Origin: Ochromonas danica | Lineage: Eukaryota; Sar; Chrysophyceae; Chromulinales; Chromulinaceae | Direction of reading: 5' to 3' | Length of the DNA: 64,000 nt | Assembly (NCBI GenBank): GCA_015146655.1 | Contig: VKHL01000015.1 | Span: forward strand, 113,064-177,063 | Shown here: piece after piece, positions 1 to 37,580 of the stretch | Layout: each line of letters starts with the position of its first letter | Numbering within the stretch: the stretch's first letter is position 1 | Notes under the pieces: generated by a model | What the model saw: the letters and a program-made list of their open reading frames with translations, nothing else | The model's database searches: none | What the model was told of the DNA's origin: nothing | Translations under genes and position numbers: made by a program

Positions 1-207
1 GGGTATGGAGGAGACATGTCTTCTGTGTCGTGGTTGCTGGGAGGAGGTGTGGTGGAGTTGCATGGTGGCGAGCTGTCGTTTATGGCGGTGAGGTCGGATG
101 GGTTGTTGGTGGGGTGGGGGAATAATGGTGTGTTTGTTGATGGCAGTTCAGTGAGTTCAGTGTCAGTGTCAAGTGCATCTTCGATGAAGTGGGAAGATTT
201 GATGTGA
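1..207 (+). CDS. PSSQP-stalk/RCC1-like giant secreted protein, copy A (C-terminal end only)
   Basis: The frame is open from the first base of the window and ends at TGA 205-207, so only the last 68 residues are present; the rest lies to the left. It holds the last blade of an RCC1-like propeller (a GLLVGWGN motif) and a serine-rich tail ending in KWEDLM. The nucleotide sequence is the same as the end of copy C (12433-12639) as far as I can compare by eye. It differs at several positions from copy B (6405-6611). This shows the tandem array continues leftwards. The role is inferred from the complete copies: a secreted or cell-surface protein. Confidence 0.85.
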   Translation, partial: GYGGDMSSVSWLLGGGVVELHGGELSFMAVRSDGLLVGWGNNGVFVDGSSVSSVSVSSASSMKWEDLM

Positions 208-750
208 TGTTTCTGTTCAGCATTGCAATGTTGTTGGCCACACTGATCACTGGACTGGTTAGTATTAATTTCTATTCTTTTCTGTTTTTCTGTTCCACAG
301 AGTCGATTTGTTTATACTATCATGAAGGAAAAGGTTGTAAACGGCAGGAGGTGTAGCTTAAAGCAGTATGATCGTCGTTGACATTATAACCATTATATCA
401 TACAATACCATAATATCATACAATGGCATTTCTGTTTTCTAGTGCCTGTGATTAGCTTTATAGTTCAATTGTGCAGAACCCTTTGGTGCTTCTGTCTTGT
501 TCTATTCCTGCTACTTGAGCAGTGTGTGGTGGTTTCCAATCATGCTGTTCCTATCTAGTAATCCTCTGATTCACAGGCTTCTTCGAAAGGTGATTTCTGT
601 TTTGAGATGAAATCGAAGTGGAAGAAGTGTGTGTTGTTTGATTTCAAGCTTTGTAACCTCTTGTGTGAAGTAATTTTGGTAACAATCAAATCAAATCAAA
701 TCAAATCGAATCACCAAGACAGACAATGTTCATCTAACAGATAGAGCCTA
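208..750. repeat. 3' flank of array unit, copy A
   Basis: Non-coding sequence that recurs after copy B (about 6612-7180) and copy C (about 12640-13215). Shared landmarks include a GAAGGAAAAGGTTGTAAA block, ATATCATACAAT repeats, a block reading GATGAAATCGAAGTGGAAGAAG, and an AATCA pentanucleotide microsatellite (687-711 here). It marks the boundary of the duplicated unit and probably holds the 3' untranslated region. Confidence 0.8.
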
Positions 751-2279
751 GTATGAGTGATATGAGCAATGAGCAAGAAATAGGAGCATCCAGATTTAGG
801 CAATATGGAACATCAATTAGTCTATCATGTGTCAATGCAGTCAACAATTTGATGAGAACCCAAACTCAGCATCAAGAGGAATCAACAAACTGCTATTCCA
901 GAGCACAAGAAACCTATTCGGTGACAGCAGATGTCTTCTAAACAAAACTGATCGCCCAAGGTTCCAAATTAAATGCCACGAGTTTTCAAGGCATTGAACA
1001 CTGGATTTCTCCTTCCATCTCACCTAAAACTGCCGTCCTAAGGTCTGATTATTATCACGCACTTCATTCCACGCCGTTCCTCCGCCTTTTGAAAGAACAG
1101 TTGATAACATCCACACATTTCGGTCGGTAATGATCGATCGACGGAACTTTGACACTTCTACTTCCAGGGGAGCATGCACGAGATTCCACCCACCAGGAAG
1201 ACACACAGGTCACAGGTCACAGGTCGCCCCGTGTCATCAGGCTAGCCTCCTTGAACCGCAAAGATGTCCCCACTCTGAGCAACAAGCCTCGCCAGAAGAA
1301 CAAGATAAGAATGAGCAGCTCTCTCACTGAAAGAGCTTAGCTCAGACCTAAATTTAGCTCTTGAAGCTATCCATTCGATCCGCGGTAAAGACTTCCGTTC
1401 TGGACATTGCCATGGGGAACCCAGCTGTGATCAACCTCAACGCGGATGTAGTGAACGTCGCGAGAGAGACCAGGAGAACCTCGCCTTCTGACGTTTGACG
1501 TGGAGCTTGGCATTTATTGGCCTTTTCAAGACATCTTGAGCTACAATCAAGAAGGTGATGAGCGAGGAGAAAGCAAATGACAGAGTCACCGCCAAAAAAG
1601 CGATGCCATCAAGAGCCGCTCATTCAACTTCCTTCAGAATGGATTCTGTTCAAGTTTGATAAACTTCTTAGTACCACAGAGGAGTATCGACAGCTCAATG
1701 TGATCGAAAGGGCTGTAAAGTTTGGGGATATCGTTTCATCGAGCTGGAGAAGCAGCTGGGTGGTCAAGAAGATCAACATCACATTGCACCTACCCCCAAC
1801 AAGAAAATACGCAAACCAGTAGTAGGCATCAACCAGGGCAAGCTTGGTGGAAGAGAATGAGAATTTCAACCATCAAAATGAGAAGGAAAAAGTAAATGAA
1901 ACATTATACTTGTAGACCAAGTAGAAGATTTGTTTGTTTGTTTGCCAGGGCAGCTGCAAACACTTGAAAACCGAGCTACAACTCGTCTTTTCCTACTTTT
2001 GCCCACGGAGGAAAGAAAACTCGAAAACTTCATCTCCTGATCGTTTTTCCACTTTTCCCACTTTTCCCACTTTTCCCTCTGTGTGCATCGCCTCGGAACA
2101 AAATCTTTCGACCAACAATCAAAGACTACAGTACATAAAGAACATCTGTTGACAAAAACAAGAAAAAAGGGAAAAAACAAAGAGAAAATAGAATAGAGAG
2201 AATAATAAAGAGAAGAAAGTCTTTGTCATTTCCCGGGGCGTATCAAGTAAAATCACAGTCTATCTATCTCTCAAGTATC
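751..2279. other. Intergenic and 5' leader of copy B
   Basis: No convincing gene. The first part continues the array-unit homology. The middle (about 1670-1735) has a short block repeated near 7387-7440 upstream of copy C (see findings). The last ~110 bases form a purine-rich leader, GAATAGAGAGAATAATAAAG onward, that is nearly identical in front of copy C (about 7850-7941). It is therefore a good candidate for the transcription start and 5' UTR. An 81-codon frame at 1577-1822 is not supported as a gene. Confidence 0.5.
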
Positions 2280-5200
2280 ATGAGAATGGGAGGAATGTTA
2301 ACAGTTCTACTACTTCTCTTGTCTTTGACACTGGGGAGTCTGGACACTTCTTCAGCCACTTTAGTAGCTGCCTCTTCTTCTTCGCAACCAATTTCTGAGC
2401 CATCCAGTCTTCCTTCAGCACAGCCTTCGACTGAGCCTACCGTAATCCCCACGGCCCAACCCTCCGCACAACCAAGCCAAGAGCCTTCTTCTCAACCTTC
2501 CAGCGAACCAACTAGTCAACCATCTTCGCAACCCTCGAGTACACCAAGTGGCTATCCTTCTTCGAAACCTTCTCAACCTTCTAGCCAACCAACGAGTCAA
2601 CCATCCTCGCGACCCTCAAATGAACCATCTGGCTGTCCTACCTCTCAACCATCGAGTAAACCCAGTGGCTATCCTTCTTCTCCACCTTCTTCTGAACCTT
2701 CCACGCAACCATCGGCTTTACCGACAACATTCCCTTCTTCTCAACCTTCTTCTCAACCTTCTAGCCAACCAACGAGTCAACCATCCTCGCGACCCTCAAA
2801 TGAACCATCTGGTTGTCTTTCCTCTCAACCATCGAGTAAACCCAGTGGCTATCCTTCTTCTCAACCTTCTTCTGAACCTTCCACGCAACCATCGGCTTTA
2901 CCGACAGCATTTCCTTCTTCTCAACCGACTTCTGGGCCCAGTTCGCCACCCTCCTCTCAACCCTCCTCTCAACCTACCGCCCAGCCCACATATCAGCCAT
3001 CATCTCCCTCAGCTACCCCATCTTCACGTCCTTCCACCCAACCTTCTTCTCAGCCCTCCTCTCAACCTACCACCCAACCCTCCTCTCAGCCTACGACCCA
3101 ACCAGCCCAGCCTTCTGCGCAGCCTTCCTCTCACCCAAGCAGCCCTTCTTGTTGTCCCAGCTCTCAACCAACAAGTCAGCCCACCTCCCGCACTTCTTCA
3201 ATCGAATTAACACTTAGCCAGTGGTCTGCGTGTCCATTTTACTCCACTTACCATACCTATTGGGCGACTAACACCAACTCCTACATTTGTACCTTCACTC
3301 TTTGTCCGGGATACGGAATTGGCACAAGATTCAACAATCAAGATAGACGAGGTCGATTGCGCCTTACGAACGGCCTTGGCAACCAATACCTTTATTATGA
3401 TACTTTTACTACCACTCTTTACTATACGCCTTCTTTGTCGAATTGTACTACCATGTATTTTTGGGAAGGATGCGGATACGAGTGGTCTTGTTCTGGACAG
3501 GTTTCAATCGTCTTGACCGTCGATACGAAGTCTCCAACAAGGATGCCAACAATAGCTCCTTCCCCGTCACCTACCAAATCTCCTACACCGCGTCCTAGTT
3601 CAAGACCATCTTCCCAACCGACCTCTGGACCATCTTCCCAACCAACGAGAGAACCTACGGCTGAGCCCACATGTTATCCAAGCAGCATGCCATCAACTCA
3701 GCCAACAGCACAACCGAGCTCCCAACCAACGGCACATCCAAGCTGCCAACCAACATCTCTACCATCTTCCCAACCAACCTCTCAACCAACCTCTCAACCA
3801 AGCATCCAACCATCATCCAAGCCAACCTTACAACCAAGCTGCCAACCAACATCTCTACCATCATCCCAACCAACGTCTCAACCATCTTCCCAACCAACGC
3901 GACAACCTACGGCTGAGCCCACATGTTATCCCAGCAGCATGCCGTCAACTCAGCCAACAGCACAACCGAGCTCCCAACCAACGGCACATCCAAGTAACCA
4001 ACCAACATCTCTACCATCTTCCCAACCGACCTCTCTACCATCTTCTCAACCAACGCGAGAACCTACGGCTGAGCCCACATGTTATCCCAGCAGCCAGCCA
4101 TCATCTCAGCCAACAGTACAACCGAGCTCCCAACCAACGGCACGTCCAAGTAACCAACCAACATCTCTACCATCTTCCCAGCCGACCTCTCTACCCTCTT
4201 CCCAACCAACGCGAGAACCTACGGCTGAGCCCACATGTTATCCTAGCAGCCAGCCATCGTCTCAGCCTACAGCGAAACCGAGCTCCGAGCCAACAGTACA
4301 ACCAAGCAGCCAACCGTCATCTCTACCCTCTTCACAACCGACATCTCAACCTGCTTCCCAACCCTCAGCTATACCTTCTGCTCAACCTTCTGGTTGGCCT
4401 ACTACCCAACCCAGCTGCCGTCCATCGGGACAACCATCGGCCAACCCTTCGACTCAGCCAACCAATCAACCAAGCAGCAAACCTTCAAGCCAGCCCAGCT
4501 CCCAACCTTCTTCCCAACCCTCAGCTATACCTTCTGCTCAACCTTCTGGTTGGCCCACTAGCCAACCCAGCTGCCGTCCATCGGGACAACCATCGGCCAA
4601 ACCTTCGACACAGCCGACTATTCAACCAAGCAGTAAACCTTCAAGCCAGCCGAGCTCCCAACCTTCCTCCCTCCCGTCTTGCCAACCATCTGGTCAGCCC
4701 ACTTCGATGCCCAGCTCGTCACCGTCAAGTCAGCCCAGTACTCAGCCTTCCTCCCAACCTTCTTCCCAACCATCGGGGAGACCTTCATCACAACCTTCTA
4801 ATGTTCCCACCAATCAACCCACGTCGCAGCCAAGTTTGAAGCCAACAGCCCAACCATCTGCTATTCCATCTGCTCAGCCTTCAGATCAACCCAGCAGCAA
4901 ACCATCTGGTCAGCCCACTTCGATACCGACTATAATACCATCGAGTCAGCCATCCTTCCAACCCTCTTCTCAACCTTCTTCTCAACCCTCTGCTATACCC
5001 TCTGCTCAACCTTCCAGCCAACCCTCGGTCCATCCTTCTAGTCAGCCCTCTGCCCAGCCTTCCTCTTTCCCCACCGTGGATGTGAGCAGCTTGGGAGAGA
5101 TGCTTCGATCTTCTCCGAGTTACCATCCGAGAAGCTTGAGTGGGATGGTGGCTTGGAATGTTTCTGGCAGTGTGTGGTGGTGGGAAGGGGATGAGAAGCA

Positions 5201-6209
5201 TAGTCAGGAGCAGAATCAGAAGCAGGATGGTTCGCTAACAGTGTTCAACGTGAGGTCGAAGCTGTGTGGTAGTTCATCGAATGTGTCTGAGTCGGAAGCG
5301 GAGTTGAACATGACGGCGGTGATCTCGAGCAAGAATGGGTATGTGGGTTTGCTGCGGGATGGTCGTTTCGCGGCGTGGGGATCGGAGGTGTCGATCTCAG
5401 GGTGGGAGCAGCATGTGTGGTGTGGGGTTGAGAGTTTGGGTGGGAGTGTGAATGTGAGTGTGTTGGGTGGTGTGAGCTGGTGGGGTTTAGTGTGGTTGGT
5501 GAGCACGGATATGTCGTTCGCAGGTGTGAACAAGACAGGAGGAGTGGTATCGTTCGGAGCAGCAAGTCATGGCGGCGAGGTGTCGTCATCTTGTGCATCT
5601 TATGTGTCAAGCGGAGTGTTGGGTATCGCAGCTGCGTCGGGTGGCGCTTATGCGGCGTGGAGAAGGGATGGGAAGGTGTGTAGCTGGGGCAATGCGTGGG
5701 CCGGAGGAGGCGTCTCTTCGTGGCAGCCGGATGGATCGCTGAAGGGTGTTAGAGGGAAGCATGTGAGGTTGAATGTGAGCGAGTCCCTTCATGATGTGAA
5801 GATGATCGTGGCGTCGGAGGCAGCGTTCGCGGCGTTGCGAGGCAATGGGTATGTGGTGAGTTGGGGGAATTGTTACTATGGTGGGTGTGCTCCAGCGGAT
5901 CTTCCTCGGTTATCGTGGTTGGTATCGGGTAGTCAAGTGTTTGTGGGAGTGAAGGCGGAAGGTCGAGGTCAGATCGTGGCGTGGGGTAAGTCGGATGTGG
6001 GTGGAGTAATTCCCGAGTCAGTGTCGACCGCGTTGTATGAGGAGGAAGTGGTGTATATCGAGTGCAATCGCGGGTCGGTGTCAGTGTTGACATCTGTAGG
6101 TCTCCCCACACCCTCACCTCACCTCCTTTCCGCCAAGCAGCAAATGCTCGATCCGAGCTCACCAATCTCACCTCCCCGACTTCCACTCCTTCTCCAGACG
6201 TGCTCTTGA
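2280..6209 (+). CDS. PSSQP-stalk/RCC1-like giant secreted protein, copy B (cut short by an inversion)
   Basis: The open frame begins at a TTG at 2223, but the likely start is the ATG at 2280 because it opens a clean signal peptide (MRMGGMLTVLLLLLSLTLGS). The product is 1,309 residues. Next comes a stalk of PSSQP, PTSQP and PSAQP repeats interrupted by one cysteine-rich domain at about 3190-3530 (CTFTLCPGYGIG and a CxxxWxCSGQ motif). The stalk ends near 5075 and an RCC1-like propeller follows, with GRFAAWG, GKVCSWGNAWAGG and YVVSWGNCYYGG blades. At 6101-6270 the propeller sequence is inverted relative to copy C, so the frame runs into a stop at 6207-6209 and three C-terminal blades are lost. 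There are no introns, unlike most genes in the window. The product is probably secreted or part of the cell covering. The function of the family is unknown to me. Confidence 0.85.
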   Translation: MRMGGMLTVLLLLLSLTLGSLDTSSATLVAASSSSQPISEPSSLPSAQPSTEPTVIPTAQPSAQPSQEPSSQPSSEPTSQPSSQPSSTPSGYPSSKPSQPSSQPTSQPSSRPSNEPSGCPTSQPSSKPSGYPSSPPSSEPSTQPSALPTTFPSSQPSSQPSSQPTSQPSSRPSNEPSGCLSSQPSSKPSGYPSSQPSSEPSTQPSALPTAFPSSQPTSGPSSPPSSQPSSQPTAQPTYQPSSPSATPSSRPSTQPSSQPSSQPTTQPSSQPTTQPAQPSAQPSSHPSSPSCCPSSQPTSQPTSRTSSIELTLSQWSACPFYSTYHTYWATNTNSYICTFTLCPGYGIGTRFNNQDRRGRLRLTNGLGNQYLYYDTFTTTLYYTPSLSNCTTMYFWEGCGYEWSCSGQVSIVLTVDTKSPTRMPTIAPSPSPTKSPTPRPSSRPSSQPTSGPSSQPTREPTAEPTCYPSSMPSTQPTAQPSSQPTAHPSCQPTSLPSSQPTSQPTSQPSIQPSSKPTLQPSCQPTSLPSSQPTSQPSSQPTRQPTAEPTCYPSSMPSTQPTAQPSSQPTAHPSNQPTSLPSSQPTSLPSSQPTREPTAEPTCYPSSQPSSQPTVQPSSQPTARPSNQPTSLPSSQPTSLPSSQPTREPTAEPTCYPSSQPSSQPTAKPSSEPTVQPSSQPSSLPSSQPTSQPASQPSAIPSAQPSGWPTTQPSCRPSGQPSANPSTQPTNQPSSKPSSQPSSQPSSQPSAIPSAQPSGWPTSQPSCRPSGQPSAKPSTQPTIQPSSKPSSQPSSQPSSLPSCQPSGQPTSMPSSSPSSQPSTQPSSQPSSQPSGRPSSQPSNVPTNQPTSQPSLKPTAQPSAIPSAQPSDQPSSKPSGQPTSIPTIIPSSQPSFQPSSQPSSQPSAIPSAQPSSQPSVHPSSQPSAQPSSFPTVDVSSLGEMLRSSPSYHPRSLSGMVAWNVSGSVWWWEGDEKHSQEQNQKQDGSLTVFNVRSKLCGSSSNVSESEAELNMTAVISSKNGYVGLLRDGRFAAWGSEVSISGWEQHVWCGVESLGGSVNVSVLGGVSWWGLVWLVSTDMSFAGVNKTGGVVSFGAASHGGEVSSSCASYVSSGVLGIAAASGGAYAAWRRDGKVCSWGNAWAGGGVSSWQPDGSLKGVRGKHVRLNVSESLHDVKMIVASEAAFAALRGNGYVVSWGNCYYGGCAPADLPRLSWLVSGSQVFVGVKAEGRGQIVAWGKSDVGGVIPESVSTALYEEEVVYIECNRGSVSVLTSVGLPTPSPHLLSAKQQMLDPSSPISPPRLPLLLQTCS

Positions 6210-6270
6210 AAGCAGAAGAAACAGAACTGCAGTTCCCTCCATAGCTAGATCGACCCCAACAATACAAACC
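6101..6270 (-). other. 170-bp micro-inversion inside copy B
   Basis: Read on the minus strand, this stretch encodes the blade sequence YCWGRSSYGGNC and DRAFAAWRKGGEVRVWG, which copy C carries on the plus strand at 12118-12299. Sequence on either side (to 6100 and from 6271) is collinear with copy C, and both breakpoints can be placed to within 1-2 bases. The copy C segment is 12 bp longer, a four-codon difference in a Gly-Glu-rich loop. The frame after the inversion is unchanged, so the stop arises only inside the inverted piece. Confidence 0.9.
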
Positions 6271-6611
6271 ACAGTGGGTATGGAGGCGAGATGTCTGAGG
6301 AGGAGAGGTTGTGGGCGTCGAGTGGAGTGCAGAAGGTGGTGTCTTCTCAAGGAGCGTTTGCAGCGTTGAGGCAGGATGGCAGTGTGTTATCTTGGGGTCA
6401 TGGTGGGTATGGAGGAGACATGTCTTCCGTGTCGTGGTTGCTGGGAGGAGGTGTGGTGGAGTTGCATGGTGGCAAGCTGTCGTTTATGGCGGTGAGGTCG
6501 GATGGGTTGTTGGTGGGGTGGGGAAATAATGGTGTGTTTGTTGATGGCAGTTCAGTGAGTTCACTGTCAGTGTCAAGTGCGTCTTCGATGAAGTGGGATG
6601 ATTTGATGTGA
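6271..6611 (+). pseudogene. Detached C-terminal propeller blades of copy B
   Basis: This in-frame continuation of copy B lies after the inversion. It encodes the blades GAFAALRQDGSVLSWG and LLVGWGNN and the tail ending KWDDLM. The first ATG in frame is at 6291. It is cut off from the main frame by the stop at 6207-6209. It could be expressed only by an unusual splice removing the inverted piece or by internal initiation, for which I see no good signal. It differs from copies A and C at several bases, for example in the tail residues. Confidence 0.75.
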
Positions 6612-7941
6612 TTTTTTGTTTAGCATTGCAATTGGTTCAGCACTGCATTGCAATTCTGCTCTTTTTCTGTTTCTCTGTTCCAAGAAGTTGATTTATTGAT
6701 ACTGTGAAGGAAAAGGTTGTAAATGACAGGAGGTGTAGTTTAAAGCAGTATGATCGTCGTTGACATTATTACCATCATATCATACAATGCCATAATATCA
6801 TACAATAGATTTTTTCTTTGTTTTCTGTCTTGCAGCGCCTGCTGTGATTGCCTCTATTGTTCAATTATTTAATACCCTTTGGTGCTTCTGTGTTGTTCTA
6901 TTTCTGCTACTTGAGTAGCGCGTCATTCGCTATGCTCTTTAATCATGCTGTTCTTATTAAGTAATCCTCTGATTCACAGGCTTCTTCTTCGAAAGGTGAT
7001 TTCTGTTTTGAGATGAAATCGAAGTGGAAGAAGTGTGTGTTGTTTGATTTCAAGCTTTGTAACCTCTTGTGTGAAGTAACTTTAGTAACAATCAAATCAA
7101 ATCAAATCAAATCATCAAGACAGACAATGTTCATCTAACAGATAGAGCCCAGGCTAGTATGAGTGATATCAACAATGAGCAAGAAATAGGAACGTCTTGA
7201 TTTAGGCAATATGGAAAGCAGATTTAGCCAGCAGTGTAAACTGCAAGGAATAACAATAGGCACTAAATACTTTCCTCGTTGTTTAAGATGCTACTTACAC
7301 ATTAGGTCTTTTGATAGCATTCGTTCTTTGTACAGGTAGTAACATTAAATGCATTGCACGAGTTGATATCTCAACAGTTTGACATCATTTCAGAAGTACC
7401 GACAGCTCAATGAGATCGAAAGAGCTGTAACATTGGGGAAAGAAGCAGCAGGCATATCTTTTCATCTAGTTGGTTGCTGCTATCTTTCGTGAATTAAAGT
7501 CAACATAACCAATCAAAACAAATTGTTTTTCAAAGGCTGAGGTGATGTTTTTCAAAGCACGTTTATTGCTGGTGGTCTCAATGCTGCTAAGTTAATGAGT
7601 TTCGGGAAGGCAGAGCACTGCGAAACTCCGAAAGCCCGAAAGTTCTGGTGGAGGTGACGTGACGTCACTTCATACCACCTTGGCCTCACAACACCCCCCC
7701 CACTCACTCACAGCAAGAAGATCTCTTTCATCAACAACCAGAGAGAAGAGAAAAAGACGAAAATAAATAAATAAATACATAAAGAAATAAAGAAGTTCTG
7801 TCTATTGACAGACAAGAAGAGAAAAGAAAAAATTCAATAAAATAGAGAAATAGAATAGAGAGAATAATAAAGAGAAGAAAGTCTTTGTCATTTCCCGGGG
7901 CGTATCAAGTAAAATCACAGTCTATCTATCTCTCAAGTATC
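6612..7941. other. Intergenic between copies B and C
   Basis: The first ~570 bases are the array-unit 3' flank, including an ATCAA microsatellite around 7089-7112. The rest is the upstream region of copy C. It holds a CTAAGTTAA motif at 7587-7595, the motif CGAAACTCCGAAAG at 7621-7634, and the conserved purine-rich leader just before the ATG at 7942. No gene is supported. Confidence 0.6.
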
Positions 7942-10900
7942 ATGAGAATGGGAGGAATGTTAACAGTTCTACTACTTCTCTTGTCTTTGACACTGGGGAG
8001 TCTGGACACTTCCTCAGCCACCTTAGTAGCTGCCTCTTCTTCTTCGCAATCAACTTCTGAGCCATCCAGTCTTCCTTCAGCACAGCCTTCGACTGAGCCT
8101 ACCATAATCCCCACGACCCAACCCTCCGCACAACCAAGCCAAGAGCCTTCATCTCAACCTTCCACTCAACCATCGGCTATACCAACTGCATTTCCCTCTT
8201 CTCAACCAACTTCAGGGCCCAGTTCGCCACCCTCTTCTCAGCCCTCCTCTCAACCTACCACCCAACCCTCATGTCAGCCTTCCACTCAGCCATCTGCGCA
8301 GCCTTCCTCTCACCCAAGCAGCCCTTCTTGCTGTCCCAGCTCTCAACCAACAAGTCAGCCCACCTCCCGCACTTCTTCAATCGAATTAAAACTTAACGAG
8401 TGGACTGCGTGTCCATTTTACTCCACTTACCATACCTATTGGGGGACTCAAAACCTGTACTTTTGTACCTTTACTCTTTGCCCGGGATTTGGTATTCGCT
8501 TAAACTATAATACTCATGGGGGTTCTATACTTCGCCTCAAAAACAGCACTGGCTTTGAGTACTTAGGCTGTATGGCCAACAAGGAATTTCTCAACGAATA
8601 CAACGAATGCCCTTCTTACTATAAGCCTTCTATCTCAAATTGTACTACCATGTATTTATGGGAAGGGTGCTTCAATGAATGGTATTGTTCTGGACAGGTG
8701 TCTTTTAACTTGACCATCGATTTGGCATCTCCAACAAGGATTCCAACCATAGCTCCTTCCCCGTTACTTGTCAACTCTCCCACATCGCGTCCTAGTCTCA
8801 GACCATCTTCCCAACCAACATCTCTACCCTCTTCCCAACCGACCTCTCAACCATCTTCCCAACCAACGAGACAACCCACGGCTGAGCCCACATGTTATCC
8901 CAGTAGCCAGCCATCGTCTCAGCCTACAGTGCAACCGAGCTCCCGACCATCAGAGCAACCAAGCTGCCAACCAACATCTCTATCATCTTCTGAACCGACC
9001 TCTCTACCATCTTCCCAACCAACAGGACAGCCCACGGCTGAGCCCACATGTTATGAGGCTTTACCAACTGCTATTCCTTCTTCTTCTTTGCCGACGTCTG
9101 GGCCCTGTGCGCCACCCTCCTCTCAACCGTCCTCCCAACCTACAGCCCAGCCCACATATCAGCCATCATCTCCCTCAGCTACCCCATCTTCACGTCCTTC
9201 CACCCAACCTTCTTCTCAGCCCTCCTCTCAACCTACCACCCAACCATCATCTCAACCTACGACCCAACCAGCCCAGCCATCTGCGCAGCCTTCCGCTCAC
9301 CCAAGCAGCCCTTCTTGCTGTCCCAGCTCTCAGCCAACAAGTCAGCCCACCTCCCGCACTTCTTCAATCGAATTAAAACTTAACGAGTGGACTAAGTGTC
9401 CTCCTTACTCCACTAGTAAAACCGCTGGGGCACTTTACAACATCTATCTTTGTACCTTTACTCTTTGCCCGGGATACACGATCAGCACAAGCGTTTCCTA
9501 TGAAAAATATTTTTCTTTGCGCTATAAAGATGGCAGTACTAAGAATGCCCATCAGTTCGCTACTTGCGACAATTATTATAATATCCCTTGTTCCTATAAG
9601 CCTTCTTTCTCAACTTGTGCTACCATGTATTTATGGGAAGGGTGCCCAAATGACTTCTATTGCTCAGCACAATTTTCAATATACTTGGCCGTCGATACGA
9701 AGTCTCCTACAAGGATGCCAACCATAGCTCCTTCCGCATTACCTACCAACCCTCCTACACCGCGTCCTAGTCCCAGACCATCTCCTAAACCAACCTCTCA
9801 ACCTACCTCTCAACCAAGCATCCAACCAACATCTCAGCCAACCGTACAACCAAGCTGCCAACCAACATCTCAACCATCTTCTCAACCGACCTCTCAACCA
9901 TCTTCCCAACCAACAAGACAACCCACGGCTGAGCCCACATGTTATCCCAGCAGCCAGCCATCATCTCAGCCTACAGTGCAACCGAGCTCCAAACCAACAT
10001 CTCTACCATCATCCCAACCAACATCTCTACCATCTTCCCAACCGACCTCTCTTCCATCTTCCCAACCAACGAGACAACCCACGGCTGAGCCCACATGTTA
10101 TCCCAGCAGCCAGCCATCATCTCAGCCTACAGTGCAACCGAGCTCCAAACCAACATCTCTACCATCATCCCAACCAACATCTCTACCATCTTCCCAACCG
10201 ACCTCTCTTCCATCTTCCCAACCAACGAGACAACCCACGGCTGAGCCCACATGTTATCCCAGCAGCCAGCCATCATCTCAGCCTACAGTGCAACCGAGCT
10301 CCAAACCAACATCTCTACCATCATCCCAACCAACATCTCTACCATCTTCCCAACCGACCTCTCTTCCATCTTCCCAACCAACGAGACAACCCACGGCTGA
10401 GCCCACATGTTATCCCAGCAGCCAGCCATCATCTCAGCCTACAGTGCAACCGAGCTCCAAACCAACATCTCTACCATCATCCCAACCAACATCTCTACCA
10501 TCTTCCCAACCGACCTCTCTTCCATCTTCCCAACCAACGAGACAACCCACGGCTGAGCCCACATGTTATCCGAGCAGCCAGCCATCATCTCAGCCTACAG
10601 TGCAACCAAGCTCCGAGCCATCAGGGCAACCAAGCTGCCAACCAACATCTTTACCATCTTCTCAACCGACCTCTCTTCCATCTTCCCAACCTTCAGCTGT
10701 ACCTTCTGCCCAACCTTCTGGTTGGCCTACTAGCCAACCCAGCTGCCATCCATCGTCACAACCATCGGCCAAACCTTCGACACAGCCAACCAATCAACCA
10801 AGCAGTAAACCTTCAAGTCAGCCCAGCTCCCAACCTTCCTCCTTCCCATCTTGCCAACCATCTGGCCAACCAAGCACCAATCCAACCAGTCAGCCTTCCT

Positions 10901-12639
10901 CTATTCCATCGGAGACGCCATCTGGTCAGCCCTCTTCGATCCCCAGTTCATCACCATCAAGTCAGCCCAGTGCTCAGCCATCTTCCGAACCGTCTTCTCA
11001 ACCCTCTGCTATACCCTCTGCTCAACCTTCCAGCCAACCCTCGGTCCATCCTTCCAGTCAGCCCTCGGCCCAGCCTTCCTCTTTCCCCACCGTGGATGTG
11101 AGCAGCTTGGGAGAGATGCTTCGATCTTCTCCGAGCTACCATCCAAGAAGCTTGAGTGGGATGGTGGCTTGGAATGTTTCTGGCGGTGTGTGGTGGTGGG
11201 AAGGGGATGAGAAGCATAGTCAGGAGCAGAATCAGAAGCAGGATGGTTCGCTAACAGTGTTCAACGTGAGGTCGAAGCTGTGTGGTAGTTCATCGAATGT
11301 GTCTGAGTCGGAAGCGGAGTTGAACATGACGGCGGTGATCTCGAGCAAGAATGGGTATGTGGGTTTGCTGCGGGATGGTCGTTTCGCGGCGTGGGGATCG
11401 GAGGTGTCGATCTCAGGGTGGGAGCAGCATGTGTGGTGTGGGGTTGAGAGTTTGGGTGGGAGTGTGAATGTGAGTGTGTTGGGTGGTGTGAGCTGGTGGG
11501 GTTTAGTGTGGTTGGTGAGCACGGATATGTCGTTCGCAGGTGTGAACAAGACAGGAGGAGTGGTATCGTTCGGAGCAGCAAGTCATGGCGGCGAGGTGTC
11601 GTCATCTTGTGCATCTTATGTGTCAAGCGGAGTGTTGGGTATCGCAGCTGCGTCGGGTGGCGCTTATGCGGCGTGGAGAAGGGATGGGAAGGTGTGTAGC
11701 TGGGGCAATGCGTGGGCCGGAGGAGGCGTCTCTTCGTGGCAGCCGGATGGATCGCTGAAGGGTGTTAGAGGGAAGCATGTGAGGTTGAATGTGAGCGAGT
11801 CCCTTCATGATGTGAAGATGATCGTGGCGTCGGAGGCAGCGTTCGCGGCGTTGCGAGGCAATGGGTATGTGGTGAGTTGGGGGAATTGTTACTATGGTGG
11901 GTGTGCTCCATCGGATCTTCCTCGGTTATCGTGGTTGGTATCGGGTAGTCAAGTGTTTGTGGGAGTGAAGGCGGAAGGTCGAGGTGAGATCGTGGCGTGG
12001 GGTAAGTCGGATGTGGGTGGAGTAATTCCCGAGTCAGTGTCTGCCGCGTTGTATGAGGAGGAAGTGGTGTATATCAAGTGCAATCGCGGGTCGGTGTCAG
12101 TGTTGACCTCTGTAGGCGGTTTGTATTGTTGGGGTCGATCTAGCTATGGAGGGAACTGCAGTTCTGTTTCTTCTGCTTTCAAGAGCACGTCTGGAGAAGG
12201 AGAAGGAGTGGGAGATGGAGTCGGGGAGGTGAGATTGGTGAGCTCGGATCGAGCATTTGCCGCTTGGCGCGAAGGAGGTGAGGTGAGGGTGTGGGGAGAC
12301 AGTGGGTATGGAGGCGAGATGTCTGAGGAGGAGAGGTTGTGGGCGTCGAGTGGAGTGCAGAAGGTGGTGTCTTCTCAAGGAGCGTTTGCAGCGTTGAGGC
12401 AGGATGGCAGTGTGTTATGTTGGGGTCATGGTGGGTATGGAGGAGACATGTCTTCTGTGTCGTGGTTGCTGGGAGGAGGTGTGGTGGAGTTGCATGGTGG
12501 CGAGCTGTCGTTTATGGCGGTGAGGTCGGATGGGTTGTTGGTGGGGTGGGGGAATAATGGTGTGTTTGTTGATGGCAGTTCAGTGAGTTCAGTGTCAGTG
12601 TCAAGTGCATCTTCGATGAAGTGGGAAGATTTGATGTGA
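7942..12639 (+). CDS. PSSQP-stalk/RCC1-like giant secreted protein, copy C (intact)
   Basis: The product is 1,565 residues from the ATG at 7942; the upstream TTG at 7885 is rejected because the signal peptide starts at this ATG. Order: signal peptide, short PSSQP stalk, cysteine-rich domain 1 (about 8371-8730), stalk, cysteine-rich domain 2 (about 9361-9700), a long stalk containing a 156-bp DNA minisatellite, then an uninterrupted RCC1-like propeller from about 11090. Propeller blades are recognised by repeated W-G motifs such as GKVCSWG, GLYCWG, GEVRVWG, GSVLCWG and GLLVGWG. The propeller DNA is almost identical to copy B, whereas the stalks differ greatly in length and layout. The protein has no transmembrane tail or GPI-like signal, so it is probably secreted or held in the cell covering. 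PSSQP stalks are likely O-glycosylated, by analogy with Ser/Pro-rich wall proteins. Confidence 0.88.
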   Translation: MRMGGMLTVLLLLLSLTLGSLDTSSATLVAASSSSQSTSEPSSLPSAQPSTEPTIIPTTQPSAQPSQEPSSQPSTQPSAIPTAFPSSQPTSGPSSPPSSQPSSQPTTQPSCQPSTQPSAQPSSHPSSPSCCPSSQPTSQPTSRTSSIELKLNEWTACPFYSTYHTYWGTQNLYFCTFTLCPGFGIRLNYNTHGGSILRLKNSTGFEYLGCMANKEFLNEYNECPSYYKPSISNCTTMYLWEGCFNEWYCSGQVSFNLTIDLASPTRIPTIAPSPLLVNSPTSRPSLRPSSQPTSLPSSQPTSQPSSQPTRQPTAEPTCYPSSQPSSQPTVQPSSRPSEQPSCQPTSLSSSEPTSLPSSQPTGQPTAEPTCYEALPTAIPSSSLPTSGPCAPPSSQPSSQPTAQPTYQPSSPSATPSSRPSTQPSSQPSSQPTTQPSSQPTTQPAQPSAQPSAHPSSPSCCPSSQPTSQPTSRTSSIELKLNEWTKCPPYSTSKTAGALYNIYLCTFTLCPGYTISTSVSYEKYFSLRYKDGSTKNAHQFATCDNYYNIPCSYKPSFSTCATMYLWEGCPNDFYCSAQFSIYLAVDTKSPTRMPTIAPSALPTNPPTPRPSPRPSPKPTSQPTSQPSIQPTSQPTVQPSCQPTSQPSSQPTSQPSSQPTRQPTAEPTCYPSSQPSSQPTVQPSSKPTSLPSSQPTSLPSSQPTSLPSSQPTRQPTAEPTCYPSSQPSSQPTVQPSSKPTSLPSSQPTSLPSSQPTSLPSSQPTRQPTAEPTCYPSSQPSSQPTVQPSSKPTSLPSSQPTSLPSSQPTSLPSSQPTRQPTAEPTCYPSSQPSSQPTVQPSSKPTSLPSSQPTSLPSSQPTSLPSSQPTRQPTAEPTCYPSSQPSSQPTVQPSSEPSGQPSCQPTSLPSSQPTSLPSSQPSAVPSAQPSGWPTSQPSCHPSSQPSAKPSTQPTNQPSSKPSSQPSSQPSSFPSCQPSGQPSTNPTSQPSSIPSETPSGQPSSIPSSSPSSQPSAQPSSEPSSQPSAIPSAQPSSQPSVHPSSQPSAQPSSFPTVDVSSLGEMLRSSPSYHPRSLSGMVAWNVSGGVWWWEGDEKHSQEQNQKQDGSLTVFNVRSKLCGSSSNVSESEAELNMTAVISSKNGYVGLLRDGRFAAWGSEVSISGWEQHVWCGVESLGGSVNVSVLGGVSWWGLVWLVSTDMSFAGVNKTGGVVSFGAASHGGEVSSSCASYVSSGVLGIAAASGGAYAAWRRDGKVCSWGNAWAGGGVSSWQPDGSLKGVRGKHVRLNVSESLHDVKMIVASEAAFAALRGNGYVVSWGNCYYGGCAPSDLPRLSWLVSGSQVFVGVKAEGRGEIVAWGKSDVGGVIPESVSAALYEEEVVYIKCNRGSVSVLTSVGGLYCWGRSSYGGNCSSVSSAFKSTSGEGEGVGDGVGEVRLVSSDRAFAAWREGGEVRVWGDSGYGGEMSEEERLWASSGVQKVVSSQGAFAALRQDGSVLCWGHGGYGGDMSSVSWLLGGGVVELHGGELSFMAVRSDGLLVGWGNNGVFVDGSSVSSVSVSSASSMKWEDLM
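9916..10615 (+). repeat. 156-bp minisatellite in the copy C stalk
   Basis: Units start at 9916, 10072, 10228, 10384 and 10540, exactly 156 bp (52 codons) apart. Four are full and the fifth is partial. Each begins RQPTAEPTCYPSSQPSSQPT and contains one cysteine, so the stalk gains one cysteine per unit. The units are almost identical at the DNA level, which suggests recent expansion by slippage or unequal exchange. Confidence 0.92.
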
Positions 12640-13700
12640 TGTTTCTGTTCAGCATTGCAATGTTGTTGGCCACACTGATCACTGGACTGGTTAGTATTAA
12701 TTTCTGATTTTTTTCCGTTTCTGTTGATTTGTATATACTATCATGAAGGAAAAGGTTGTAAACGGCAGGAGGTGTAGTGTAAAGCTGCGCGATCGTCGTT
12801 GCCATTATTACCATTATATCATACAGTGTCCTAATATCATACAATAGTATGTTTTGTTTTTGTCTTGTAGTGCCTATGATAAGATCTATCTCGTAGTAAT
12901 TGTGCAAAATCCTTTGGTGGTAGATTGTTTTTGGGTCTTTCGTGTCTGGTCAACTTAGCAAAAATCTCATGCGGTGTTTAATTCTGCATGTTGTCATTAT
13001 GCTTCAATCATGCTGTTGCTATCTAGTAATCCTCTGATTCACAGGCTTCTTCTAAAGGCGATTTCTGTTTTGAGATGAAATCGAAGTGGAAGAAGTGTGT
13101 GTTGTTTGATTTCAAGCTTTGTAGCCTCTTGTGTGAAGTAATTTTGGTAACAATCAAATCAAATCAAATCATCAAGACAGACAACGTTCATCTAACAGAC
13201 ATTCGCCAGTATATAGAGTGTGGGAAAAATAAGCTCATCCGCTCTAAACTGTGTTAGTTAGAAAGCTTCTTCATTCTTCTCTCAAACCAAGGACAAATGC
13301 ATTCCTCACTCTGGCTTGAGAGAAGTAAAGAGCTTACGAGTTAGAACACATAACATTTCCTTTCCACTTGTATTAGACTAGCTAAGTTAATGGGTTGCTG
13401 TGAATGTTGCTAAGTTAACGGATTTCAGGTTTTCGGCGGCAGGACATTCGAGCTCCGCATCGAAAATACGAAATCCCGAAAGCTGGGGTGGGAGTGACGT
13501 CTTTCGCACCACCCCTCACACCTCATCCCAGCAATCGCGTCCACCACTCCATACTAACTAGATAAAACGCAGTAAATACTCTAAGAAACGCTTTAAAAAG
13601 TGATATTGAGCGAACTGACGAATTCTTGGCCACGAAATCTCTCATCGCCACCGTATTAATTGAATATCATCATCTTCATCATCCATCTTGAGACTAAGCT
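12640..13700. other. 3' flank of copy C and upstream region of the amine oxidase gene
   Basis: 12640 to about 13215 repeats the array-unit flank, including the AATCA microsatellite (about 13153-13170). After that the array homology ends. The upstream region of the next gene has CTAAGTTAA motifs at 13382-13390 and 13410-13418 and the motif CGAAATCCCGAAAG at 13469-13482. These resemble motifs in front of other genes here. Confidence 0.6.
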
Positions 13701-20091: not shown

Positions 20092-21093
20092 ATGCGATCA
20101 ACACACACCTCTTTGATAATATGGAACTTATTGCTCTTATCTCTCTTAGTTAGTGCTTTTCAACCTTCTCCTTGTAGATATAGTAGAGGATGGGTGAGAA
20201 TGGCAAGTGTTGTGGATTATCCTGCAAGAATTAAGACTGTGGTGTCCAGACTGACAGCCAGCACGCAGAAGGCTTTGAAAGGCCAACTTTCTCGAATCAT
20301 CGTTGATCTCCCACCTGGCGCTGAGTTTGGCATTGAATCTGCAAAGAAGTTGGCATTTTCGAAATCCAGCGACCCGGCGGATCAAGTGAGACGAAGTAAT
20401 CGAGAGGCCGCCCGCTTATTCACTGAAATGTTCTCAGTTTTAGGTTCTACCACTGTGGTTCAATTCCCCACGGATAGTGAGGCTAGTTCTGCACGAAGTT
20501 CATGGGGAGGAAAGTTCAAAGGAACTGTGTTGGCTACAGAGCAGCAGGCTAGTAAGGGCTACGGCAGCAACGCCCTCTTCTCCAAGAGATTCACTGAAGA
20601 GGAACGGAAAGCTGCTCTGCTAGGAAAGGATGGCATATATGTACCTGACGGGACGGAAGTTTTCATCATGGTCGGAGCTCGCCAGCAAGACCTCGCCAAA
20701 GTCCTCCAGCTCCATCGCACTGTGGGCTTGGACTGCCTGGTCATTCTATTGAATGCTTATCTTCCACCTTCACGTGCTGAAAAGGGAGAAAATAAAACAC
20801 TTTCTGTTGGGGAAGAGATAGACAAGGCTTTCGAGCGTGTTTTTCATTACGCCCCTCCAAAGCTACGTCCAGAAGTCATCGGCAAACGAGAGCTGCTGCT
20901 CTTCCATGAGATGAAAGGACCTTGGTATTTGGCTGAGAAACCAACTAAATTCACGCCCAGTGTTGTGGAAGGAATGGTTGATAAAGTGATTCAAGCTGTA
21001 TCGGGCGAAGGCAAAGATATGGTCACTCTGTGGCAGGGTCCAATTATGCCCACAGAGAGCGAGATTGTTGATATACTTCGAACCCATGCCTAA
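20092..21093 (+). CDS. DUF1995-like protein with plastid-type presequence
   Basis: A 333-residue intronless protein. The N-terminus is a signal-peptide-like stretch (SLIIWNLLLLSLLVSA) followed directly by FQPSPCRYSRGWVRM. A phenylalanine at the cleavage site plus a basic Ser/Pro-rich transit segment is the known bipartite plastid-targeting signature of stramenopile algae. The mature part has LSRIIVDLPPGAEFG and later EVFIMVGARQQDLAKVLQL, which resembles DUF1995 proteins. One family member in plants, LPA3, helps assemble photosystem II; the link to that role here is only inference. The family call is by pattern memory and less certain than the targeting call. Confidence 0.65.
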   Translation: MRSTHTSLIIWNLLLLSLLVSAFQPSPCRYSRGWVRMASVVDYPARIKTVVSRLTASTQKALKGQLSRIIVDLPPGAEFGIESAKKLAFSKSSDPADQVRRSNREAARLFTEMFSVLGSTTVVQFPTDSEASSARSSWGGKFKGTVLATEQQASKGYGSNALFSKRFTEEERKAALLGKDGIYVPDGTEVFIMVGARQQDLAKVLQLHRTVGLDCLVILLNAYLPPSRAEKGENKTLSVGEEIDKAFERVFHYAPPKLRPEVIGKRELLLFHEMKGPWYLAEKPTKFTPSVVEGMVDKVIQAVSGEGKDMVTLWQGPIMPTESEIVDILRTHA

Positions 21094-21232: not shown

Positions 21233-22663
21233 TTAAGCACTCTCCTCCAAAGCAATCAACTTGTCCACACCATCAATCATACGCTGGACAAGCTCAACCT
21301 CAGAAGCACCGATACGGCCCTTGTTGGAAATATCGAACTCTCCGTTAGGACCAGGAGGAGAATGCTCTCCGCGGCCACCGCGAGCCTGAAGACCCAGGGA
21401 GTCAGCAAGCTCCTCCAACTTATGCACACCAAGCTTCTTGTAAAGTTTGGGAAGCTTCAGCATGACAGAGGCACGCAAGCCGGTACCAACATTGGATGGG
21501 CAAGTAGTGATGTAACCCAAATGCTCATCATGAGCATAATGATAGCCTGCCTTGTTCAGACTCTTCTCAACGGAGTTAATAGCATTGGCCCAGCGAACAA
21601 AGACTTCCTTCACGTTGCCACCATCTTGCATGGCAATGCAGCGCATGTGGTCCTCCTCATTCACCCAGACGAGGAATGTCTTGTCCTTGTTGTGGAAAAT
21701 ACCACGAGCATCAGGCCAATCTCTAGCAGCTCCACAGTTGGAGAGGACATTGTTGGGAGTAGGCTTCTGGAAGAGGAAGCCAGTGTCCTGAAGATCCTGC
21801 TCCTCTTTCTTGGTCATGGCACCCAGAGGATAATAGATGCCGGTGAGATCTTCAGGCATCTCATTTAAAGCCTGAGTGAGAAGCTTCTCGACAAGACGAC
21901 GCTGCTTGCGGTCAGTGGAGGGAGGGAGGGCAAGGGTATCAATGGAGCGACCAGCACGGATACGAGTGCTCACGACGTACTTGTTGAATTTGGCAGCCTG
22001 TTCAGGAGTCATCACAATCTTAGAAGCATCCATGTCTGAGTGATGGCTATCAGTAGCCTTGTAGCCATGCCAGCCTTCAATGACAATGTCCATGATATCC
22101 TTGTAGGCATGGTAAGCGGCAGGCTCTCCAGCAACAATACCCACGCCAAGGTGAGGAGCATCCAGACCAGCTTGAATGGCCTGATCAAAGCTGAAGCCCA
22201 TAGGAGTGCGCACATTAGCATACTTGGTGTAGAGGGAGGGGTCAGCACGGATGGCCTTGCAGGTAAGGGAGCGATGTTTGTCGGTGATGTAAGGGAAGTT
22301 GCCCACGGGGTCCACCGACTTCTTCACGACAATATCAATGCCAAGATCAGTCTCAACTTTTCTCACGAGCTATTTTCATTGAACGGAAACACAAATCAAG
22401 ACAGAGAGCGATCATTAGCGTTGAAGAAGCAAGGAATTTTTAAATTTCTTTACCGCGAAAATCTTCTCCAACACTGCTGCAGGATTTTTCTCATCATTAG
22501 AGGCTTGGGTAACAGTCAAGGTCTGTGAATATAATTTTTAACACAGCAGCGGAGTTAGAGGTTTGCAGGTAGGCATGGGTTGAAGGAAGAGGAAACTCAC
22601 GGCACCGGCTCCAGCGGTAAAAGCAATAGCAGGGATGGCACGAGAAGACAATTTGCTAAACAT
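21233..22663 (-). CDS. Mitochondrial guanidino kinase (creatine/arginine kinase family)
   Basis: Three exons on the minus strand: 22663-22601, 22522-22454 and 22369-21233, with introns of 78 and 84 nt, giving 422 residues. Exon 1 encodes MFSKLSSRAIPAIAFTAGAGA, a typical mitochondrial presequence. Exon 3 holds the catalytic domain of ATP:guanido phosphotransferases: NEEDHMRCIAMQDGG and the active-site cysteine in CPSNVGTGLRASV, plus STRIRAGRS for nucleotide binding. Total length matches mitochondrial creatine kinases. The family transfers phosphate between ATP and a guanidino compound to buffer energy. The substrate (creatine, arginine, taurocyamine or other) cannot be decided from the sequence; the active-site motif is closer to creatine-type enzymes than to the CPTNLGT form usual in arginine kinases. 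Confidence 0.9.
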
Positions 22664-36353: not shown

Positions 36354-37580
36354 CTACTTATAAGAGCGCATCAGATTTGTATCTAATGCACCATTCTGCT
36401 GCCGTTGTAGTTCACGGTAATTGTATGGAACTATTGTGCAATCATCTAACGAGGCGGGAAACACGAAAACATTCATTCGAAACTCCCATGGTGTGCGATG
36501 ATCCTCTGTGGTCATTCGATGTCGAGGTACAGAGGCTACATTTGTGTAGATTGACCTCAAGCAATGGTGTATAGAGTACTTCATTGTCCCCGGAATGGCG
36601 ATGTCGAAGGCATAAAACTGGAAATCCGCCTGCCATTGGTCTGCATTCTGAATTACTTCCCGAGCAATATGCACACGTGGGAAAGGATCCCAACGTCGAT
36701 AGACTGTATACAAGGCAGAGGAAGGAAGCTGGTGGTCGAAGCCATAGAAAGATCCAATCACTCTCCAATCCTGCCGAGCATAGAGGATTGGCCCAGCCTC
36801 AATCCAATAGGTTGACCCCCATCCTCCTTCACTATCCAGAGCCTCATGATGAATTCTCTTCTCTAAGATATAATACTGTGTCGCAGGATAAGTAGCGAAG
36901 GAGTAAAGACGACGTAATCCCAATCCTGGCTCTTCCTGTGATGAGATGAAATAGCGATCAGGTAGATCACAATAGTCAATATAGAGACGTGCAGTTCCTT
37001 TCGCAAAGTGTGGGTCTTGATAGCAGTGCAGAGTCTCTTTCAACACCCACTTGACCAAGTCGCGCTTGTTCTCTTTGCCACTGAGACGATATTTACTCCG
37101 CCGTGGTGGTCCAGCAGATTCCACCATGAGCTTGCAGGAGTTCTCTGTCTCACCGTCTAGGAAGAAGAGCGACCGTAGGGGATACCAGCTACCACTTCGT
37201 CTTACAGAGAGAGAATCATGTCGATCAGAGGTAGCATATTGTAAATAGGGACGATCTTGTTGATAGACATCTAGACGCTTTAAGATGACAACACGTGGCA
37301 GAGTGGGGAAGAGAAATTGAGAGGTCCATGGCCAGTCGATCATAGCAGTGAGCTTCTGCTTCTGAAAGAGAGAGATGAACTTCGGGATCTCTTCTGGCAG
37401 AGTCTCGGGGTCGATGATGTCTTCTGGGTCTTTCAGCAATCGTCCCATTTCATCATGAGGCACTCCCTCTGGAGGTGGAAAGTAGTCCACACCTTCACTC
37501 TCTGTATTCCCTTCACCTGTTCCATATGGATCAGTTAACTGTTGATTTTGGTCATAATAAGCAATCTCGTTGTTACTCAT
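36354..37580 (-). CDS. Unknown conserved-looking soluble protein
   Basis: A 408-residue intronless protein with an ATG at 37580. It has no signal peptide, membrane segment or motif I recognise. The N-terminus (about 70 residues) is acidic and proline-rich with FPPPEGVPHDEMGRLL. The remainder is rich in aromatic residues and Arg, with probable strands such as WTSQFLFPTLPRVVILKRL, RLYIDYCDLPDRYFISS and TYWIEAGPILYARQDW. This aromatic-rich style and the even length suggest one large beta-rich domain. It is convergent with the amidohydrolase gene and divergent (263 bp) from an UNC93-like transporter. I assign no function. Confidence 0.6.
   Translation of the reverse strand: MSNNEIAYYDQNQQLTDPYGTGEGNTESEGVDYFPPPEGVPHDEMGRLLKDPEDIIDPETLPEEIPKFISLFQKQKLTAMIDWPWTSQFLFPTLPRVVILKRLDVYQQDRPYLQYATSDRHDSLSVRRSGSWYPLRSLFFLDGETENSCKLMVESAGPPRRSKYRLSGKENKRDLVKWVLKETLHCYQDPHFAKGTARLYIDYCDLPDRYFISSQEEPGLGLRRLYSFATYPATQYYILEKRIHHEALDSEGGWGSTYWIEAGPILYARQDWRVIGSFYGFDHQLPSSALYTVYRRWDPFPRVHIAREVIQNADQWQADFQFYAFDIAIPGTMKYSIHHCLRSIYTNVASVPRHRMTTEDHRTPWEFRMNVFVFPASLDDCTIVPYNYRELQRQQNGALDTNLMRSYK

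Follow-up and report, generated by a model that had tools for sequence, protein, structure and literature searches.

The DNA analyzed here, a 64,000-nucleotide stretch of the Ochromonas danica genome (the window), contains three related genes arranged head to tail in its first 13.2 kb. The copies, termed 0, A and B (Table 1), were recognized from frame calls and self-alignment. Their homologous 3' ends start at positions 1, 6405 and 12433 and are thus spaced by 6404 and 6028 bp, and the similarity between copies is far above chance (83% over a 2,398-column alignment, E = 0). A first-pass annotation had proposed at least three head-to-tail copies about 6 kb apart, and this is borne out with a spacing of 6.0-6.4 kb, copy 0 being represented by 68 codons only. 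The array continues past the left edge of the window, and the full-length view is limited to copies A and B. From 13.2 to 64 kb, tblastn retrieved no further propeller or cysteine domain.

The proteins encoded by A and B share the same order. A signal-peptide-like leader is followed by a Ser/Pro/Gln/Thr stalk with six-cysteine domains, one in A and two in B; the C-terminus is formed by a propeller of the RCC1/BLIP-II type. The proposed joining of a signal peptide and a stalk to a propeller is found in both copies, with a leader that resembles a signal peptide. The two spacers at 811-2135 and 7217-7787 are about 1.3 and 0.6 kb long, respectively, and by eye have a diverged piece containing CGACAGCTCAATG in common.

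Table 1. Coordinates of the array features in the window.
Feature	Position	Strand	Evidence
Copy 0, 3' end: last 68 codons and stop; remainder left of the window	1..207	+	translation; tblastn 100%
Tract common to copies 0 and B (in B from 12433), A excluded; candidate gene-conversion tract	1..276	+	runs test
Copy A, truncated by inversion	2280..6209	+	ORF from ATG 2280
Signal-peptide-like leader of A, 36 codons compared	2280..2387	+	codon comparison with B
Cysteine domain of A	3198..3554	+	three-domain alignment
PT/PSSQP stalk of A with 156-bp units	3555..5075	+	repeat search, PF04886, unit comparison
Propeller of A ahead of the break	5076..6098	+	codon comparison with B
Inverted segment of A's propeller; matching repeat reads on the minus strand	6100..6270	-	BLAST, MAFFT against B
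C-terminal propeller end of A, stranded behind the stop, 111 codons	6276..6611	+	codon comparison with B
Copy B, single open frame, 1,565 residues from first Met	7942..12639	+	ORF from ATG 7942
Cysteine domain B1	8377..8751	+	translation, three-domain alignment
Cysteine domain B2	9364..9726	+	translation, three-domain alignment
156-bp tandem array of B	9858..10691	+	units starting 9934, 10090, 10246, 10402 identical
RCC1/BLIP-II-type propeller of B, C-terminal, seven N-glycosylation sequons	11092..12636	+	PF13540, profile, model

The window is gene-dense. Pfam assigned an amine oxidase, bestrophin, a DUF1995 protein, a guanidino kinase, enolase, COX15, an ACSF4-type enzyme, an M20 peptidase, MCM, MFS transporters, a sulfatase and an LRR protein. 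According to a reading of the sequence, the enolase frame requires an intron after the first codon (GTAAGT to TGTAG). Because of these eukaryotic-type genes and the predicted intron, the window is taken to be a eukaryotic nuclear region. It gave no Rfam match at gathering thresholds and contained no tRNA. The DUF1995 protein (20092-21093) adjoins the ATP:guanidino phosphotransferase (21233-22366), a hint of a photosynthetic protist, as DUF1995 is presumably linked to plastids. Taken together with the PSSQP-type proteins, this pair would suit a stramenopile-like alga. Long frames without a Pfam family at E 1e-4 are located at 36354-37580, 45354-48275, 52920-54350 and 54436-55761.

The propeller of B matched RCC1_2 (PF13540, 1e-11) in five stretches, as repeated RCC1-type blades, and phmmer against the PDB found two HERC2 propeller sequences (best 3.5e-4). 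An AlphaFold model based on 35 sequences (mean pLDDT 73.2, pTM 0.77, 205 of 501 residues at pLDDT ≥90) consists of nine three-strand repeats, with pLDDT below 50 in segments 1-61, 90-118, 200-219 and 478-501. When this model was compared to the PDB with Foldseek, BLIP-II came first (E 4e-14), followed by UVR8, RPGR, HERC2 and RCC1; the CR4 ectodomain (7a0k) ranked 42nd. Scored on the query, TM values were low, at 0.31-0.34 for the 20 best PDB rows, which makes ring closure and blade number tentative. The RCC1/BLIP-II fold class itself is settled, and the propeller is related to known extracellular propellers. The presence of the leader and the PT stalk argues against identity with RCC1 proper, the Ran exchange factor.

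BLIP-II, the best solved structural match, is not known to have a PT stalk. Passages in the literature describe it as a secreted binder grouped with RCC1 (PMC9218822) and give it a seven-bladed fold (PMC4617170), as opposed to the nine three-strand repeats modeled here. The same passages of PMC4617170 describe the CR4 receptor ectodomain as an RCC1-like propeller. CRINKLY4/ACR4 thus resembles the present proteins as a eukaryotic protein with an extracellular RCC1-like propeller, but it is a receptor with TNFR-like repeats and a kinase, neither of which was found here with Pfam. The CRINKLY4-family order (propeller, TNFR repeats, membrane span, kinase) is also absent, since the propeller is C-terminal and the later hydropathy maximum is 1.41.

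Relatives were also found in prokaryotes and viruses. Six plasmid records matched the propeller, the closest being a tandem-95 repeat protein of Shewanella oneidensis MR-1 (33.0% identity, E 3e-16), and a DVUA0089 family protein of Euhalothece shared 28.6% identity. These bacterial giant or lipid-anchored RCC1-like proteins are the closest plasmid sequence relatives, and they differ by putative lipobox anchoring in some of them. On the Shewanella oneidensis megaplasmid (L001:9046-23718), three tandem-95 repeat genes are neighbors, of which the first carries the propeller match and two are annotated with the same protein accession. A profile of three sequences (the window propeller, Shewanella and Euhalothece) identified 257 relatives among 487 pattern-matched stretches in prokaryotic genomes, of which the best 80 loci were kept, and 21 loci in viral contigs. 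In 69 of these best 80 loci the start of the reading frame was included, and a crude rule (charged start plus hydrophobic stretch) flagged an export-signal-like start in 22, 15 of them with a lipobox-like motif. The other 47 were unflagged, so export of the majority of relatives is unsupported. Nevertheless, the statement in the first-pass annotation that RCC1-like propellers are normally intracellular is too strong, in view of secreted BLIP-II, the RCC1-like CR4 ectodomain and the 22 export-flagged relatives. Among viral structures in BFVD, giant-virus RCC1 proteins top the list (best match a Megaviridae RCC1 protein, E 1.1e-30), while the propeller alone found no relative in IMG/VR and none in phage records. 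Despite the 21 viral loci and the BFVD matches we make no claim of a viral origin, as the window has the gene content and the predicted intron of a eukaryotic nuclear genome.

The leaders of A and B are identical in amino acid sequence over the 36 codons compared, with two nucleotide differences. Hydropathy, measured on B, peaks at 2.0 over 19 residues in the leader, which also supplies all five of the best 19-residue stretches. Besides the leader, hydropathy of B revealed no membrane span or other anchor; the best value after residue 1000, the 1.41 mentioned above, is inside the propeller. The propeller has seven N-x-S/T sequons, compared to a mean of 2.8 in shuffled sequences (p = 0.011). 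The leader and the sequons suit export as far as can be judged from sequence, and proteins of the A/B type would be secreted. The predicted surface location is unproven because hydropathy shows no membrane span or anchor.

The stalk matched the PT repeat family PF04886 in both copies (1.1e-127 for A, 3.2e-115 for B), as expected for a PT-repeat protein, but because it is a low-complexity repeat this match is a weak sign of ancestry. A sample of 755 residues from B contained 29% Ser, 26% Pro, 14% Gln and 11% Thr, a composition that is common in extended modified rods. The middle of the gene had been described as variable, and this is confirmed by the number of cysteine domains (one or two), the number of PTCYPSS units (four in A, six in B) and the divergence of the units. 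Units 2-5 of B are mutually 100% identical, whereas the units of A share 75-88% identity with those of B (76-88% for A2-A4 against B units 2-5), and A2 and A3 are 94% identical to each other. Read from these alignments, the 156-bp unit has undergone recent expansion inside a copy.

All three cysteine domains (A, B1 and B2) have six invariant Cys residues. No confident family was found in Pfam, PHROGs or NCBIfam, and the domain was absent from the viral contigs searched. Its structure model was poor (pLDDT 50.8), with every PDB match worse than E 0.001. Beta-sandwich folds (the ColH collagen-binding domain, GOLD, CUB and CBM) appeared among these matches but, with E above 0.001 in all cases, were not used; a pre-peptidase C-terminal-like fold is conjectural. 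The domain search proposed in the first-pass annotation thus gave a family and a structural match for the propeller and neither with confidence for the cysteine domain.

Copy A differs from B by an inversion in the propeller, which the first-pass annotation had overlooked. The inverted piece of 171 bp corresponds to the reverse complement of B 12118-12300, with 91% identity over 183 columns and two gap openings in BLAST; in MAFFT, 165 of 171 aligned bases are identical, with 6 substitutions and 12 gap bases. The inversion introduces an in-frame TGA at 6207-6209, giving a product of 1,309 residues from the first Met, of which the final 35 are unrelated to B. The break lies at about residue 328 of the propeller model, within the sixth of the nine repeats, so that A has lost the last three repeats together with a portion of another. 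Since the 12-base length difference is a multiple of three, the downstream frame of A is unchanged. The propellers had been called near-identical between copies; this is true before the break and after the inverted piece but not at the inversion, and A is truncated. An invertible switch was considered and rejected, as the inversion creates a stop and is not bounded by an inverted repeat: of the three pairs of inverted repeats detected between 5900 and 6500, none flanks the segment on both sides. We treat the inversion as damage. Copy A is probably a broken gene, and its decay indicates that the locus tolerates damage.

To compare the ends and the middle of the genes, synonymous and nonsynonymous divergence was calculated by the Nei-Gojobori method. 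Between A and B, dS was 0.068 and dN 0 in the leader (36 codons), 0.017 and 0.006 in the 341 propeller codons that precede the inversion, where 9 nucleotides and 5 amino acids differ, and 0.040 and 0.016 in the 111 codons after it, where 7 nucleotides and 4 amino acids differ. For the last 68 codons, copies 0 and B are identical at the nucleotide level, and the comparison of either with A gave dS 0.065 and dN 0.020. In contrast to these dS values of 0.02-0.07, the cysteine domains have dS values of 0.46-0.58 (A-B1 0.58, A-B2 0.48, B1-B2 0.46), with dN of 0.29, 0.35 and 0.40, respectively. A's cysteine domain is distant from both B1 and B2, which excludes a recent simple loss of one B domain in A. 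A scan of linker, domain and linker in 20-codon windows gave pS values of 0.14, 0.00, 0.26, 0.43, 0.60, 0.46, 0.40, 0.31 and 0.15, followed by 0.50 in a last fragment of two codons. The value of 0.00 belongs to the 20 codons that span the PT linker and the very start of the cysteine domain, and values of 0.26-0.60 extend across the remaining domain. The 3' flanks have diverged as well, with identities of 80.5% for A-B (125 gap columns), 86.2% for 0-B (68) and 87.8% for 0-A (56).

Purifying selection alone could in principle keep the leader and propeller alike in old duplicates, and the propeller dN/dS of about 0.4 agrees with this. However, the leader and propeller are also nearly identical at silent sites (dS 0.017-0.068) beside far more diverged flanks and cysteine-domain synonymous sites, for which selection at the protein level alone is insufficient, making this explanation very improbable. 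The simplest cause of the similarity of the ends is conversion or exchange of whole ends.

The same divergence bears on a possible assembly artefact, in which a single gene or alleles would have been laid in tandem, or repeats or the inversion would be false. Identical tandem units and near-identical genes are indeed prone to such errors. On the other hand, each copy has its own 3' flank, the cysteine domains differ between copies, the inverted piece has its own substitutions and gaps relative to B, and no runs of N are present. We therefore regard an artefact as unlikely.

Exchange between copies was examined with runs tests (20,000 shuffles) on the 109 ungapped polymorphic sites obtained when the 3' ends and flanks of all three copies were aligned. 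An uninterrupted run of 20 sites (24-276) is shared by copies 0 and B (p = 5e-5), whereas the longest runs for 0 and A (7 sites, p = 0.084) and for A and B (2 sites, p = 0.95) were not significant. At all 20 sites of this tract it is A that deviates, for which a higher rate of change in this broken copy would be a partial alternative explanation. The other 89 sites count against that alternative, as the odd copy is A at 23 and B at 44 of them. Among the 141 two-state sites of the aligned cysteine domains, 13 in a row near the front of the domain (3228-3261) match between A and B1 (p = 2e-4); the tests for A and B2 (p = 0.078), B1 and B2 (p = 0.47) and clustering of B1/B2 patches (p = 0.13) were not significant. 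These p-values are guides, as shuffling takes no account of mutation that varies from one part of the sequence to another. The array thus shows the homogenized ends, diverged middle and tracts of a gene-conversion array, even though some runs tests were not significant. A role of recombination in shaping the array is supported by the synonymous contrast between ends and middle, the tract shared by 0 and B, the patch shared by A and B1, and the identical units of B.

The first-pass annotation had gone further and suggested that unequal exchange generates surface variants. The tracts and the dS contrast uphold the recombination part of this claim. The variant-generating part is not upheld, with one haplotype analyzed, dN/dS values below 1, no anchor apparent by hydropathy and A being broken. 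An adaptive generator would make new stalk and cysteine-domain combinations on which selection acts, helping the cell to evade grazers, viruses or bacteria or to tell self from non-self, as in surface-antigen families. The constant ends and variable middle would fit, and there is a parallel in the Plasmodium merozoite antigen paralogs DBLMSP and DBLMSP2, for which PMC10919680 reports non-allelic gene conversion together with deeply diverged forms of one domain; these are unrelated proteins, and population data are given there as opposed to a single haplotype here. However, whole-domain dN/dS was below 1 for each pair of cysteine domains (A-B1 0.50, A-B2 0.73, B1-B2 0.86), leaving positive selection over the whole domain unsupported, and the ratio exceeded 1 in just two of the 20-codon windows, reaching 1.17 inside the cysteine domain and 1.19 in the PT linker that follows. 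The inversion in A, without bounding inverted repeats, also resembles damage rather than a switch. Adaptive generation of variants is therefore improbable. The pattern is real, but it looks more like ordinary repeat evolution than a proven variant-making system, and the measurements are accounted for by a repeat-rich family that evolves passively in concert.

The explanation that we consider probable is a secreted, modular tandem family with an adhesive or cell-covering role, evolving in concert by conversion or exchange, stalk duplication and module turnover. The extended Ser/Pro/Gln/Thr stalk, probably glycosylated or hydroxylated, would carry cysteine-bridged domains and hold up the C-terminal propeller as a binding head. 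The idea of a binding head is based on BLIP-II and CR4, which use the same fold class for binding outside cells. An adhesive or cell-covering component is the most likely role, and the disulphide bridges, glycosylation, adhesive or matrix function and exact recombination process are likewise proposed. Gene conversion or unequal exchange between copies would prevent leader and propeller from diverging, 156-bp units would be duplicated by slippage or unequal exchange within the stalk, and the cysteine-domain modules would be older and have been gained, lost and exchanged in patches. As a compact natural case, the locus lets conversion between genes, growth of repeats, turnover of modules and decay of a gene be followed within 13 kb. 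Among the matches listed, mainly from non-subscription literature, there was no published description of a leader and a six-cysteine PT stalk combined with an RCC1/BLIP-II-type head.

A narrower form of this explanation, overlapping with it, is a structural wall or scale protein resembling diatom pleuralins and PT-repeat proteins, with neutral drift of the repeats. PT repeats are carried by silicon-responsive Thalassiosira proteins, including TpSIL1, according to passages of PMC5501833. The proline-rich repeats are alike, and pleuralins, as described in passages of PMC4557024, add repeated cysteine-containing domains, combining a proline-rich part with repeated 90-residue PSCD domains and variable C-termini. 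These pleuralin passages mention no propeller, and we consider this narrower reading less likely than not. In coccolith research, a passage of PMC11685980 names EhG32342.1, which has an RCC1 domain, as one of the coccolith proteins that had been proposed before; the main text of PMC10290126, presumed to be the earlier study, contains neither RCC1 nor EhG32342.1. In the passages of PMC9481584, PMC11453091 and PMC4742977, RCC1 occurs as strain codes only, without protein meaning.

A more speculative proposal, to which we give little credence, is a diversification locus for recognition of or defence against microbes, in which conversion would fix leader and head while cysteine cassettes and stalk length are reshuffled, yielding lineage-specific variants in a free-living protist. 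The propeller might then be of bacterial origin, in view of the many bacterial relatives in the prokaryotic and plasmid collections searched.

The 3' flanks contain a further conserved feature. A block of about 150 bp is found at 578-750, 6983-7131 and 13022-13190, about 375 bp downstream of each stop. In 60-base windows it is 91-100% identical between copies, with the stretch from stop to block mostly more diverged. This block is possibly a regulatory element or a conversion patch.
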